A stretch of 64,000 bases of DNA from Neopararhizobium haloflavum. GTDB lineage: Bacteria > Pseudomonadota > Alphaproteobacteria > Rhizobiales > Rhizobiaceae. Position numbers and translations under genes: made by a program. The notes beneath the pieces were generated by a model, which made no database searches, had not been told where the DNA came from, and was given only the letters and a program-made list of their open reading frames with translations. Shown one piece after another: positions 31,382 to 37,292 of the stretch. Every line of letters starts with the position of its first letter. Positions within the stretch are counted from its first letter, which is position 1. The stretch lies in NCBI RefSeq assembly GCF_002750855.1, contig NZ_NWUC01000006.1, forward strand, positions 248,001-312,000, given 5' to 3'.

Positions 31382-32500
31382 ATGGCATACACACTTCCCC
31401 AGCATGGCGACCGGGTCGACTGGGTCGATCACGCCAAGGGCATCTCGATCCTCCTCGTCGTCATGATGCATTCCACGCTCGGCGTCGAGATCGCCGCCGG
31501 CGCGGTCGGTTGGCTGCATCCCGTGGTGGAGTTCGCCAAGCCGTTCCGCATGCCGGCGTTCTTTCTGATCTCCGGCCTCTTCCTCGCCCGCACGATCGAT
31601 GCGCCCTGGCGCCGCTTCCTCGACAGGAAGGTTCTCCATTTCGCCTATTTCTACGTGCTGTGGGTGCTGATCCAGTTTGCCTTCAAGGGTCCGGGCATCG
31701 CCATGGAAGGCGGCGTCGGTGCGGCCCTCGCGGCGCTTGTCGAGACAACCTACCAGCCTTTCGGCACGCTCTGGTTCATCTACGTTCTGCCGGTCTTCTT
31801 TCTCTTCACGCGCCTGGTGCGCGGCCTGCCGGTGTGGCTTGTCCTGGCCTGGGCAGCGCTTCTGGAAGTCATGCCGATTGCAACCGGCAGCGTGGTCTAC
31901 GACGAATTCGCCGCGCGCTACGTCTATTTCTTCGTGGGATACGCCCTCGCTGGCTCCATCTTCGGCTGGCAGCGGTGGAGCGCCGCGCGCATCGCTCCCG
32001 TCATCGCGGGCCTCATCGCCTGGTTCGCGGTCAACGCGGCGCTGTCGCAAGCGACCCTTCCGGCCGGTCTGACGCCATATGCGCAAGTCTTTTCAAGCGA
32101 GCCGACCGTCCTTCGATGGAGCGATCTGGCTGGCATCTCGCTCGTGCTCGGACTGGCTGGGAGCCTGGCGCTCGTTGCGGTTTGCGGTCTGATCGCGAGG
32201 GCGCGCTGGAGCCAAGGGTTGCGCTGGATCGGCGCCCACTCCATCGTCATCTACCTCGCTTTTTTCCTGCCGATGGCAGTGACGCGGACCGCGCTCCTCA
32301 AGCTCGGCATCATCGCCGATGTCGGCACCATGTCGCTGATCACCTGGATCGCCGCGGTGTCGGGACCCGTCGTGCTCTACCTCGTCATCCAATGGTCGGG
32401 GTGGGGGCGGTTCCTCTTCGAGCGTCCCCGCTGGGCGCGCCTGGAGGGCGCGACCCCGCGCGCCGCTGAGCAGGGCAACAGCGCGGCTCAGGCCGGCTGA
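31382..32500 (+). CDS. acyltransferase family membrane protein
   Basis: A 372-aa polytopic membrane protein of the acyltransferase-3 family, which O-acylates sugars of exopolysaccharide, LPS or glucans. The N-terminal signature RVDWVDHAKGISILLVVMMH includes the conserved His, and FRMPAFFLISGLFL follows; about ten hydrophobic segments are predicted by eye. The acceptor is unknown. ATG 31382 is used; GTG 31373 is also in frame. It overlaps the convergent M20 gene by 13 bp at its 3' end. Confidence 0.85.
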   Translation: MAYTLPQHGDRVDWVDHAKGISILLVVMMHSTLGVEIAAGAVGWLHPVVEFAKPFRMPAFFLISGLFLARTIDAPWRRFLDRKVLHFAYFYVLWVLIQFAFKGPGIAMEGGVGAALAALVETTYQPFGTLWFIYVLPVFFLFTRLVRGLPVWLVLAWAALLEVMPIATGSVVYDEFAARYVYFFVGYALAGSIFGWQRWSAARIAPVIAGLIAWFAVNAALSQATLPAGLTPYAQVFSSEPTVLRWSDLAGISLVLGLAGSLALVAVCGLIARARWSQGLRWIGAHSIVIYLAFFLPMAVTRTALLKLGIIADVGTMSLITWIAAVSGPVVLYLVIQWSGWGRFLFERPRWARLEGATPRAAEQGNSAAQAG

Positions 32501-33888
32501 CGCGCCAGGGCATCCATGACGCGGATCCACGAGCGGATGCCCTTGTGAAACGACGTCAGCTCGTATTTCTCGTTCGGTGAATGAATGCGGTCGTCCGCAA
32601 GGCCAAAGCCGATCAGCAGCGAATCCATGCCGAGCATCTTCTGGAAATCGCCGACGATCGGGATGGAGCCCCCCATCCCGATCATGACTGCCGGCTTCGG
32701 CCATTCTCCCGTAAGGGCATCCTTTGCCGTGTTCAGAAGCGGCGAATCGTAAGGCAGCTGGATGGCCGGCGATCCGCCGTGCTCGTGGAACGAGACCTTG
32801 CAGTCTTCCGGAACCCGCGCCTCCACGAAGGCGCGGAAATTGCGCCGGATCGCCGCCGGGTCCTGCTCTCCGACCAGTCGGAAGGAGACCTTCGCATGGG
32901 CTTCGGCCGCGATCACCGTCTTGAAGCCCTCGCCCGTATAGCCGCCCCAGATGCCGTTCACTTCGGCTGTCGGCCGCGCCCATGTCAGCTCCAGCACCGA
33001 CCGGTCTTGCTCGCCAGCGAGCTTGGAGAGCCCGACCTCACCGAGAAAGGCTTCCGCCGTGCGTCCCAGCTTGTCCCAGCTCTGCTTGATCTGGCTCGGG
33101 GTTTCCTCGACGCCGTCGTAGAAATCGGGGATCGTGATGCGCCCGGTCTCGTCGCGCATCGCGGCGAGGATCGTGGTCAGGACGTGAATGGGATTGGCGG
33201 CGGCGCCGCCGAAATAGCCCGAGTGGAGATCACGGTCGGCTGCCGTGATGGTGATTTCCTCGCCGACGAGGCCGCGCAGCCCGGCCGAGATCGCCGGCGT
33301 GTCCGCGTCCCACATGTTCGTATCGCAAACCAGCGCGAAATCAGCTTTCAGCTCTTCCGCATTGGCGTCAAGAAACGGCTTAAGTGAGGGCGATCCGGAT
33401 TCTTCCTCGCCCTCGAAGAGTATCGTCACCTTCAGCGGCAGAGAACCTGCGGCCTTCTTGTAGGCGCGGCACGCTTCCACGAACGTCATCAACTGTCCCT
33501 TGTCATCAGCCGAGCCGCGCCCGGTGATCACCTTGCGCCCTGTTTCCGGGTGCTCCTTGACGCTCGGTGTGAAGGGGTCATCGTGCCAAAGGTTGAGCGG
33601 ATCGACCGGCTGGACGTCGTAGTGACCGTAAAAGAGCACGTGTGGCGCATCGGCCGTTGCGCCGTCATGATGAGCGACGACCATCGGATGACCGCTGGTA
33701 TCGCGCACCGACGCGTCGAACCCGATGCTCTTGAGCTGTGCAACCAGAAATTCCGCAGCCGCCCGGCAGTCCTGCTTGTACCCCGGATCCGTTGAAATCG
33801 ACTTGATGCGAATGAGGTCGAACAGCGTTTCGAGGCTGGACGGCAGCGCGGCGTCAGCCTCTGCGAGAACGGGTGCGATATCGGTCAT
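32488..33888 (-). CDS. M20 family dipeptidase-like metallohydrolase
   Basis: A 466-aa cytosolic zinc peptidase of the M20/carnosine dipeptidase type. The metal site is visible as GHYDVQP (His/Asp), GRGSADDKG (bridging Asp), FEGEEESGSP (catalytic Glu and Glu ligand), CDTNMWD (Asp ligand) and HSPNEKYEL near the C-terminus (His). A lid/dimerisation domain with DLHSGYFGGAAANP lies between. ATG 33888; a TTG nine bases upstream extends the frame slightly. Convergent overlap of 13 bp with the acyltransferase. Confidence 0.9.
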   Translation of the reverse strand: MTDIAPVLAEADAALPSSLETLFDLIRIKSISTDPGYKQDCRAAAEFLVAQLKSIGFDASVRDTSGHPMVVAHHDGATADAPHVLFYGHYDVQPVDPLNLWHDDPFTPSVKEHPETGRKVITGRGSADDKGQLMTFVEACRAYKKAAGSLPLKVTILFEGEEESGSPSLKPFLDANAEELKADFALVCDTNMWDADTPAISAGLRGLVGEEITITAADRDLHSGYFGGAAANPIHVLTTILAAMRDETGRITIPDFYDGVEETPSQIKQSWDKLGRTAEAFLGEVGLSKLAGEQDRSVLELTWARPTAEVNGIWGGYTGEGFKTVIAAEAHAKVSFRLVGEQDPAAIRRNFRAFVEARVPEDCKVSFHEHGGSPAIQLPYDSPLLNTAKDALTGEWPKPAVMIGMGGSIPIVGDFQKMLGMDSLLIGFGLADDRIHSPNEKYELTSFHKGIRSWIRVMDALARQPA

Positions 33889-34001
33889 GGTCGGCAAGCC
33901 TCAATGTGGGAATCGATGGTCGGGGGACCATATCCGCCGCGCCGGGAAAGACAATGGTGCGGCCGCAGGCGTCGCCGGGACGTCGGGAGCTTCTGCTAGC
34001 C

Positions 34002-34042
34002 AAGAAAAAGCCGCCGCGACGGGGGCAAATGTCGCGACGGCT
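34002..34042 (-). terminator. intrinsic terminator ending the candidate sRNA
   Basis: 12-bp GC-rich stem (one G-U), 10-base loop, then TTTTTCTT on the minus strand. It lies about 115 bp upstream of the M20 peptidase start, so it would also insulate that gene from leftward transcription. Confidence 0.8.
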
Positions 34043-34140
34043 TCCATAAGAGTGGACAAAGGCCCGGAGAGGGGGGGATAAGGCCTTTGTCCTATGTCCG
34101 GCGTGGCGGGGGACAAGCCAGAGTGCCGGACAGCGGCATA
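34002..34140 (-). ncRNA. candidate three-hairpin small RNA with C-rich loops
   Basis: On the minus strand three hairpins follow each other with only a few bases between them. SL1: UGUCCGGC/GCCGGACA (34132-34125 with 34102-34095) with an inner UGGC/GCCA and loop UUGUCCCCC. SL2: a perfect 11-bp stem (34092-34082 with 34064-34054), 17-base loop containing CCCCCCCUCUCC. SL3: a 12-bp stem with one G-U pair (34042-34031 with 34020-34009), loop AUUUGCCCCC, followed by TTTTTCTT, a classic terminator. There is no open frame of note. Stacked hairpins with C-rich, anti-Shine-Dalgarno-like loops are the hallmark of rhizobial sRNAs such as the alpha-r14/NfeR1 group; membership is inference. The 5' end and promoter are not resolved. 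Confidence 0.6.
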
Positions 34141-34298
34141 ATTTTGATTGCCGATAGATATCAGATGGCGCCGCGAATATGGCGATTCAAGGATGACGTG
34201 GATTACAAATCGGTAACGTGTGCGTGAGGGTTTTGGCGCCCTTCCGACCCGCCAGACCACCGTGGACTTGTCGTATTGCGCGCGCTAATCGTCATGCC

Positions 34299-37292
34299 AT
34301 GAAAAATGGCGATCATCTCTTCCTAGTCGACGGTTCGGGCTACATCTTCCGCGCCTACCATGCACTGCCGCCGCTGACGAGAAAGTCCGACGGGCTGCCC
34401 GTTGGCGCGGTGTCGGGCTTCTGCAACATGCTCTGGAAGCTCCTCGTCGATGCGCGCGATACCGAAGTCGGTGTCACGCCGACCCATTTTGCGGTCATCT
34501 TCGACTATTCGTCCAAGACCTTCCGCAACGATCTTTACGATCAGTACAAGGCGAACCGTTCGGCCCCGCCCGATGACCTCATTCCCCAGTTCGGGCTGAT
34601 CCGCCAGGCAACGCGCGCGTTCAATCTTCCCTGCATCGAGAAGGAGGGATTCGAGGCTGACGACCTCATCGCGACCTATGCGCGTCTGGCCACCGAAGTC
34701 GGCGGAGATGTGACGATCGTCTCGTCCGACAAGGATCTGATGCAGCTCGTCAGCGACCGCGTGTCGATGTACGACACGATGAAGGATAAGCAGATCGGCA
34801 TTGCCGAAGTCGTGGAAAAATGGGGTGTGCCGCCGGAAAAGATGATCGATCTTCAGTCGTTGACTGGGGATTCGACGGACAACATTCCCGGCATTCCTGG
34901 CATCGGGCCGAAAACCGCCGCACAGCTGCTGGAGGAGTATGGCGACCTTGACACGTTGCTTGCCCGCGCCTCGGAGATCAAGCAGAACAAGCGCCGCGAG
35001 AACATCATCCAGTTCGCCGACCAGGCACGCATTTCGCGCGAGTTGGTGACGCTGAAGCGCGACACGCCGATCGAGGTTGGCCTGGAGGAATTGCGCCTCG
35101 AAGTGCAGGATGGACCAAAGCTCGTCGGCTTCCTCAAGGCCATGGAGTTCACGACGCTGACACGCCGGGTCGCCGAGGCAACGGGCGCGGATGCGGCGGA
35201 AATCGAACCCGCCGAGATCGAGTTGCAATCGGGCGCTGCTGCGCATGGCCCGGACCTCGACAAGGGCGATGCGGCGCCGGCCGAGGCCGGGAAGGGCGCT
35301 GGCAAATCCGCGGCTTCGGCTAAGAATGTGGATCAGCCCGGCCAGGGAACGCCGCGGGCGCTGGCCGATGCCCGCGCTTCTGCTGCGGCATCAGCGGCCA
35401 TCGATCGCTCGTCTTACGTTACGATCCGGGATCTTGAAACGCTCGACAGGTTCATCGCCATTGCTCGCGAGACCGGCATTGTCGCCTTCGACACCGAGAG
35501 CAATTCGCTCGATGCCGTGCAGGCCGACCTCGTCGGTGTCTCCCTTGCCGTCGCCAACAACACGGTGGATGCATCCGGCTCCGAGATCATGGCGGCCTAT
35601 CTGCCGCTCGCCCATCGCGTCGGCAATGACGATCTCCTGGGAGGCGGGCTGGCGCCGGACCAGATCGATTTCGACGCCGCGCTCGACCGGCTCAAGGAGC
35701 TTCTGGAAGACCCGGCAGTCCTCAAGGTCGCGCAGAATCTGAAGTATGACTGGCTGCTGATGAAGCGCTACGGCGTGGAGGTCGGCCCGTTCGACGACAC
35801 GATGCTGATGTCCTACGTCGTGGAATCGGGGATGGCGACCTATGGCGCCACCGGCGGCCATGGCATGGATTCGCTGTCGGAGCGCTGGCTTGGCCACAAG
35901 ACGATCGGCTACAAGGAGGTCGCCGGCTCCGGCAAGGGTCAGGTGACGTTCGATCTGGTTTCCATCGACAAGGCAACGGAATACGCCGCCGAGGACGCCG
36001 ACGTCACGCTGAGGCTCTGGCTCGCCATCAAGCCGCAGCTGGTCGCCAAGGGGCTTGTCTCCGTTTATGAGCGGCTGGAGCGACCACTGGTGCCCGTTCT
36101 GGCGCGCATGGAGGAGCGCGGCATCGCCGTCGACCGGCAGATCCTGTCGCGCCTTTCGGGTGAATTCGCACAGGGCGCGGCCGCGCACGAATCGGAAGCC
36201 TACGAACTTGCCGGCGAGAAGTTCAATCTCGGTTCGCCCAAACAGTTGGGTGAAATCCTGTTCGGCAAGATGGGATTGCCGGGCGGATCGAAGACCAAGA
36301 CCGGACAATGGTCGACTTCGGCCCAGGTCCTTGAGGACCTTGCGGCCGCCGGCCATGCGCTGCCGCGAACCATCGTCGACTGGCGTCAGCTCTCCAAGCT
36401 CAAATCGACTTATACCGACGCGCTGCCGGGCTATATCCATCCTGCCACCAAGCGTGTCCACACTTCCTATTCGCTGGCATCGACGACGACGGGTCGGCTT
36501 TCCTCGTCGGAACCCAACCTGCAGAACATTCCGATCCGAACCGCCGAGGGACGCAAGATCAGGACGGCCTTCATCGCCGAGCCGGGCTACAAGCTCGTCT
36601 CCGCGGATTACAGCCAGATCGAGCTGCGCGTCCTCGCTCATGTCGCCGATATCCCGCAATTGCGGCAGGCCTTCGCGGACGGCATCGACATTCACGCCAT
36701 GACGGCCTCTGAAATGTTCTCCGTGCCGGTCAAGGACATGCCCGGCGAAGTGCGCCGGCGCGCCAAGGCGATAAATTTCGGCATCATCTACGGCATCTCG
36801 GCCTTCGGTCTCGCCAACCAGCTCGGCATCGAACGCTCCGAGGCGAGCGACTACATCAAGCGCTATTTCGAGCGGTTTCCCGGCATCAAGGACTATATGG
36901 ACGCCACGAAATCGTTCGCGCGGGAGAATGGCTACGTGAAGACCATCTTCGGCCGGCGTGCCCACTACCCCGAGATAAAGTCCTCGAACCCGCAGGTTCG
37001 CGCCTTCAACGAACGTGCGGCGATCAACGCGCCGATCCAGGGCTCGGCTGCCGACATCATTCGCAGGGCGATGATCCGGGTTGAACCGGCATTGCTGAAA
37101 TCAAGCCTTGCCGGGCGCATGCTGCTTCAGGTGCATGACGAACTGATCTTCGAGGTCCCGGTGGATGAAGTCGACCGGACGATCGAACTCGTCACCGAGC
37201 TGATGGAAAACGCGGCGATGCCGGCGCTGTCGATGAAAGTGCCGCTGAAGGTCGACGCCCGCGCCGCGGACAATTGGGACGAGGCGCACTGA
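34299..37292 (+). CDS. polA: DNA polymerase I
   Basis: 997 aa with all three Pol I domains. The N-terminal 5'-3' nuclease (residues about 1-290) begins HLFLVDGSGYIFRAYHALPP and has SSDKDLMQL and IPGIPGIGPKTA. A linker of about 90 residues rich in Ala/Glu/Lys follows. The 3'-5' exonuclease domain keeps its catalytic acids (VAFDTESNSLD). The polymerase domain has motif A VSADYSQIELR, motif B RRRAKAINFGIIYG, and motif C VHDELIFEVP. The ATG at 34299 is chosen because it starts right at the conserved N-terminus; the frame is open 27 codons further upstream. Confidence 0.97.
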   Translation: MKNGDHLFLVDGSGYIFRAYHALPPLTRKSDGLPVGAVSGFCNMLWKLLVDARDTEVGVTPTHFAVIFDYSSKTFRNDLYDQYKANRSAPPDDLIPQFGLIRQATRAFNLPCIEKEGFEADDLIATYARLATEVGGDVTIVSSDKDLMQLVSDRVSMYDTMKDKQIGIAEVVEKWGVPPEKMIDLQSLTGDSTDNIPGIPGIGPKTAAQLLEEYGDLDTLLARASEIKQNKRRENIIQFADQARISRELVTLKRDTPIEVGLEELRLEVQDGPKLVGFLKAMEFTTLTRRVAEATGADAAEIEPAEIELQSGAAAHGPDLDKGDAAPAEAGKGAGKSAASAKNVDQPGQGTPRALADARASAAASAAIDRSSYVTIRDLETLDRFIAIARETGIVAFDTESNSLDAVQADLVGVSLAVANNTVDASGSEIMAAYLPLAHRVGNDDLLGGGLAPDQIDFDAALDRLKELLEDPAVLKVAQNLKYDWLLMKRYGVEVGPFDDTMLMSYVVESGMATYGATGGHGMDSLSERWLGHKTIGYKEVAGSGKGQVTFDLVSIDKATEYAAEDADVTLRLWLAIKPQLVAKGLVSVYERLERPLVPVLARMEERGIAVDRQILSRLSGEFAQGAAAHESEAYELAGEKFNLGSPKQLGEILFGKMGLPGGSKTKTGQWSTSAQVLEDLAAAGHALPRTIVDWRQLSKLKSTYTDALPGYIHPATKRVHTSYSLASTTTGRLSSSEPNLQNIPIRTAEGRKIRTAFIAEPGYKLVSADYSQIELRVLAHVADIPQLRQAFADGIDIHAMTASEMFSVPVKDMPGEVRRRAKAINFGIIYGISAFGLANQLGIERSEASDYIKRYFERFPGIKDYMDATKSFARENGYVKTIFGRRAHYPEIKSSNPQVRAFNERAAINAPIQGSAADIIRRAMIRVEPALLKSSLAGRMLLQVHDELIFEVPVDEVDRTIELVTELMENAAMPALSMKVPLKVDARAADNWDEAH

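Follow-up and report, generated by a model that had tools for sequence, protein, structure and literature searches.

What is encoded on the minus strand between polA and an M20 peptidase gene of Neopararhizobium haloflavum, where three successive hairpins display C-rich loops? The window, that is, the whole stretch of DNA that was analyzed, comprises 64,000 nucleotides (contig NZ_NWUC01000006.1, positions 248,001 to 312,000). Both neighbors named in the original prediction were confirmed by Pfam: polA (DNA polymerase I; 34299..37292, plus strand; DNA_pol_A, 531.2 bits) is divergent from the element, and the M20 peptidase gene (32488..33888, minus strand; Peptidase_M20, 114.5 bits) follows it downstream in the same orientation.

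Fold and identity of the element

The three minus-strand hairpins with C-rich loops that had been proposed are borne out by the fold. The minus strand of 34149-34002 folds at −65.1 kcal/mol, compared with an average of −40.1 for dinucleotide shuffles (n = 200), and 0/200 shuffles are as low (z = −7.07). Hairpin 1 (34095..34132) has a stem of 8+4 bp and the loop UUGUCCCCC (34116-34108). Hairpin 2 (34054..34092) presents UAUCCCCCCCUCUCC (34080-34066) on a 12-bp stem of 11 Watson-Crick pairs and a closing U-G, and hairpin 3 (34002..34045) presents AUUUGCCCCC (34030-34021) on a stem of 15 bp, in which the U tail adds A-U and G-U pairs to a core of 11 bp that includes one G-U. The stems are as originally drawn, but with extra closing pairs in hairpins 2 and 3. 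The third hairpin, with the U tail CTTTTTCTT on its 3′ side, is an intrinsic terminator; a terminator scan flagged this site, via a shorter alternative stem.

Two matches over the cut-off emerged when the whole window was scanned with Rfam: the sRNA family αr7 and the small signal recognition particle RNA, the latter at 2224-2321. The αr7 match (RF02342) covers 34005-34149 on the minus strand and model positions 1-145 of 145, with 102.2 bits and an E value of 7.4e-19 against a gathering cut-off of 60 bits. Model R1, built from 26 sequences that include the window's element, scores this element at 129.1 bits in the search of its own genome (C33:282002-282156, which is window 34002-34156), and this is the single αr7 match there. 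The window element has the three hairpins with the terminator as the last, the covarying stems, both conserved loop sequences (GUCCCCCGC and CCCCUCUCC), and the divergent polA neighbor. We conclude that it is almost certainly an αr7 sRNA of the SmrC7/SmelC023 type, as judged by sequence. The suggestion that it might represent a distinct family therefore fails: it belongs to a known family, in print since 2007, and is an ordinary find except for the conserved palindrome described below.

The Sinorhizobium meliloti member, named SmrC7, sra03, and SmelC023 (PMC2873474) and reported as mapped by Northern blotting and RACE, resembles the window element in sequence, three hairpins, loops, terminator, and polA neighbor. 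SmrC7 is described as lying between polA and SMc02851, as giving a 148- to 150-nt transcript and a 106-nt processed form, and as being ∼13-fold up in nodules (PMC2780559). For sra03, three hairpins, a central loop of 15 nt, and the zapA operon as proposed target are given (PMC2245857). A report on 29 αr7 relatives placed all but one beside DNA polymerase I and noted conserved loops and base-pair exchanges (PMC3927594).

Distribution and conservation

αr7 is widespread in Rhizobiaceae. It was matched in 4/4 genomes of the genus and, at the family level, in 252/298 genomes at E ≤ 0.001, with 210/298 over the cut-off. In the order- and class-level searches, whose stricter filters may lose weak matches, αr7 was found in 23/397 genomes (18 over the cut-off, all 18 from the window's own family) and in 4/385 genomes (over the cut-off in the window's own genome only), respectively. 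The sRNA, called Smr7C there and described as widespread, is reported as not found in Mesorhizobium huakuii 7653R (PMC5596092). One record titled Bacillus subtilis SK6B4 (L074) has an alphaproteobacterial polA and αr7, so this record is mislabelled or contaminated.

Among the best 80 of 592 polA loci, R1 places αr7 upstream of polA on the opposite strand, within ∼1.05 kb, in 75/80. These 75 loci and the window form the 76-locus set used below. Weak matches (L020-L023) were not used, some loci in overlapping sets come from the same genomes (L123/L090 and L126/L093), and some genomes among the 80 loci also contributed sequences to R1. A PolA tree built from the window and these best 80 of 592 loci gives Oricola indica as the sister of the window (L065; support, 0.993).

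αr7 was not found in the DNA upstream of polA in L046, L065, L067, L078 (409 nt only), or L092. All five genomes (5/5) have an αr7-like match elsewhere, with best E ≤ 9e-15. In L046 it lies ∼6 kb from polA, if contig C15 is the L046 record, and an insertion would therefore explain the separation. The αr7-like copies L164, L165, and L167 have an altered central loop, and each of their genomes also carries a copy with the usual loop; these genomes are ones in which αr7 was not found at polA.

Covariation in related genomes, named at the outset as a decisive check on the three stems, was found in an alignment (A2) of 26 sequences selected among the hits of the Rfam αr7 model. Double changes preserve pairing in 18/31 consensus pairs. 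Paired cells amount to 99.6%; shuffles reach 87.9%, and offsetting the partner by 1-3 columns gives 28.9-44.9%. The covariation score is 0.439 versus 0.203 in shuffles. The count of pair types, one of the five covariation measures used, is no higher in A2 than in shuffles (33 versus 33.1), and the inner 3-bp stem of hairpin 1 is invariant across the 26 sequences. Because the pattern of three C-loop hairpins is conserved in relatives with compensatory changes, it exceeds chance, as had been argued.

Two of the loops are the best-conserved stretches of αr7: GTCCCCCGC in hairpin 1 is exact in 66/76 loci, and CCCCTCTCCGG in hairpin 2 is exact in 68/76. The third loop differs in the window, where it carries GCCCCC and lacks the CCUCC typical of most relatives (CCTCC within the last 50 nt in 55/76 loci). 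The loop-2 C-run of the window, with seven bases, is the longest among the 26 aligned sequences.

Promoter and upstream palindrome

The absence of a clear promoter was named as the main weakness of the prediction, and a promoter scan indeed found 0 matches of the E. coli type. By comparison among relatives, a conserved block can nevertheless be seen: a −35 element, CTTGAA (34186..34191, minus strand), is followed after a 17-nt spacer by the −10-like CCATCT (34163..34168, minus strand). CTTGAA is present in 74/76 loci, and CCAAAT or ACAAAT stands at the −10 position in many relatives, as read by eye. The promoter is thus conserved in many of the 76 loci (CTTGAA with a CAAAT-like −10), though unlike the E. 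coli type.

From these elements, transcription likely starts near 34156, to which the R1 match also reaches; the predicted αr7 gene is 34002..34156 on the minus strand. A minus-strand sRNA with its own terminator was correctly foreseen, but its predicted length is ∼155 nt instead of ∼140 nt because of this likely 5′ end. In S. meliloti, mapping placed the SmrC7 start at two G residues separated by two bases' distance (PMC2780559), and the Sinorhizobium sequence L089 has G-A-G at model position 1, which would fit that start. For sra03, the list of Ulve et al. 2007 gives no promoter, as far as the available text goes (PMC2245857); a table entry for the sRNA names RpoD and RpoH1/2 and nodule zones II/III (PMC7143759).

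Upstream of the −35 element lies a conserved palindrome, GTTACCGATTTGTAAT (34202..34217, minus strand), with a 16-bp consensus of TTAC-N6-GTAAY led by G or A in most loci. It occurs in 62/76 loci, in each of which 9-11 or 19-21 nt separate it from the CTTGAA downstream, and the same two spacing classes recur in a partly overlapping set, with the palindrome in 43/45 loci (a spacing count that omitted L019 and L121). The pattern has a single match within the window and 0 in 100 shuffles. The palindrome was absent upstream of polA (600 nt; 409 in L078) in 5/5 loci without an adjacent αr7, and it precedes 3/8 examined αr7-like matches away from polA, in 3/5 genomes, with a near match preceding a fourth. 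Being absent at polA and present at some relocated copies, the palindrome seems tied to the sRNA and not to polA. It was not seen before the αr7-like matches of L065, the genome nearest the window.

The palindrome is the likely operator of a DNA-binding regulator. That αr7 is controlled by such a regulator, bound at a distance of one or two turns of the helix from the −35 element, on its upstream side, and that αr7 and αr14 may be ancient relatives, is a tentative proposal to which we give slightly less than an even chance. We set these odds a little lower than even because a UlaR-like site had been predicted for the promoter region of smrC7 by Del Val et al. 2007, who also mention conserved, unannotated stretches upstream (PMC2780559). 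In the open-access literature on αr7 we found no description of the palindrome, the only element of the find for which this is so. A regulon defined by the palindrome was rejected: genome-wide, the pattern has 4 sites (8 strand hits), the same count as a reversed control pattern, and of these 4 only the sRNA's own resembles the family consensus by eye. As a putative operator, the palindrome offers a handle on what turns αr7 on.

Competing readings, related sRNAs, and possible function

The element could instead be the leader or attenuator of the M20 peptidase gene, which is on the same strand and starts ∼110 nt downstream; an M20 gene also lies ≤2.6 kb downstream of αr7 in 58/75 loci. Against this, the unit is closed by a terminator, the M20 gene is 600-900 nt away in many relatives, and SmrC7 is reported as a separate 148- to 150-nt transcript (PMC2780559). 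Moreover, M20 directly follows αr7 in the window, whereas L026 has a MarR-family gene in between, and in L077 a MarR-family gene comes next with no M20 within 2.6 kb. These are two of the four loci with frames listed, and a MarR-family gene after αr7 is given for Rhizobiaceae (PMC3927594). We regard a leader as very unlikely. A small protein is close to inconceivable: an open frame of 119 aa (33901-34260, minus strand) does run across the element, but it has no Pfam match, and the loop-2 C-run before TCTCC has 4, 5, 6, or 7 bases and the total length varies from 137 to 155 nt among the 26 aligned sequences, so that the frame is broken while the base pairs are kept.

The original prediction likened the design to αr14/NfeR1, the anti-Shine-Dalgarno sRNAs, and the likeness stands even though membership does not. 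Both expose a C-rich loop on each of three hairpins; among 4227 Rfam families, αr14 (RF02344) ranks second for the window element, and R1 also matches αr14-type elements at 22-43 bits. However, the αr14 score of 33.8 bits is below the cut-off of 58.8, and CCUCCUCCC, reported in each of the three αr14 loops (PMC10746234), is in no loop of the window element. Furthermore, three αr14 copies over the cut-off lie elsewhere in the same genome, R1 did not list these strong copies in its own-genome search (150 of 1762 candidates scored), and in the reverse comparison αr7 was not among the 26 matches of the αr14 copy L132. It is thus highly improbable that the element is of the αr14/NfeR1 type, and its membership in αr14 is refuted. 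Matches from αr7 to αr14 are suggestive of a possible shared ancestry, but L132 gave none in return. In L024, L026, L036, L041, L058, L060, L064, and L069, the only 8 loci out of the 80 to be scanned with Rfam, an αr14 is encoded on the other strand at ∼2.8-4.5 kb from αr7, and four of these 8 also have an αr35 match.

The preferred reading remains αr7 as a trans-acting sRNA, which is quite probable. A sigma-70-type promoter of its own would drive its transcription, divergent to that of polA, and the transcript would end at the third hairpin. We consider this the best explanation because of homology, structure, covariation, conservation of loops and promoter block, and persistence away from polA.

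Among known systems, sX13 of Xanthomonas (RF02232) shares with αr7 three stems, C4-C5 loops, and the polA neighbor, and the 2013 paper on sX13 already draws the structural analogy to αr7 and remarks on the apical C-rich motifs of αr7. The window element is not a member (11.6 bits versus a cut-off of 50), and sX13 lies downstream of the polA stop codon, whereas αr7 is divergent from the polA start. PmaR of Agrobacterium likewise uses a C-rich loop for its targets but is a single spoon-like hairpin, in contrast to the three hairpins of αr7, and mostly activates its targets; its reported range is confined to Agrobacterium species plus a single Rhizobium strain (PMC6234868). PmaR was rejected as the same family.

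sX13 is reported to repress mRNAs independently of Hfq, by way of its C-rich loops and of G-rich motifs in the mRNAs, and NfeR1 is described as Hfq independent and as carrying three anti-Shine-Dalgarno motifs for which pairing with mRNAs is predicted (PMC10746234). Since αr7 has the same layout and near-invariant loops of its own, it may well act likewise, its C-rich loops serving as seeds that would pair with several mRNAs at G-rich sites, which would often be ribosome-binding sites. By analogy with sX13 and NfeR1, we rate this mode of action as rather likely. Pairing would not need Hfq; SmrC7 is reported as undetected in Hfq coimmunoprecipitates of S. meliloti, which the authors ascribe to absence or low affinity (PMC2848018). 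The near-invariant loops suggest precise mutants for testing.

Target prediction from the loops, proposed as a follow-up, yielded no target that passed, and in the open-access literature on αr7 and related sRNAs we found no verified αr7 target. The zapA operon was rejected as a target, its pairing (760 nt) being no better than that of shuffles: 198/200, 197/200, and 118/200 shuffles were as low or lower for loops 1, 2, and 3, respectively. A genome search for the exact 10-nt complement of loop 2 gave 12 sites, one of them αr7 itself; a frame of ≥60 codons begins closely downstream of 0/11 of the others, and targets by this route were also rejected.

Two observations concern loop-2 complement sites. 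A four-copy dispersed repeat (L149-L152), which has no Rfam match, contains 14 nt complementary to loop 2 and its closing stem; this match is probably due to chance. Another site (L155, positions 88-101) belongs to a tRNA-Ser (CGA) gene, whose 3′ end has 15 nt (ATCCCCCCCTCTCCG) in common with αr7 loop 2 of the same genome. The tRNA-type pattern CCCCCTCTCCGCCA occurs in 4/4 genomes of the genus and in just 14/41 genomes overall, so that this likeness, too, is probably fortuitous.
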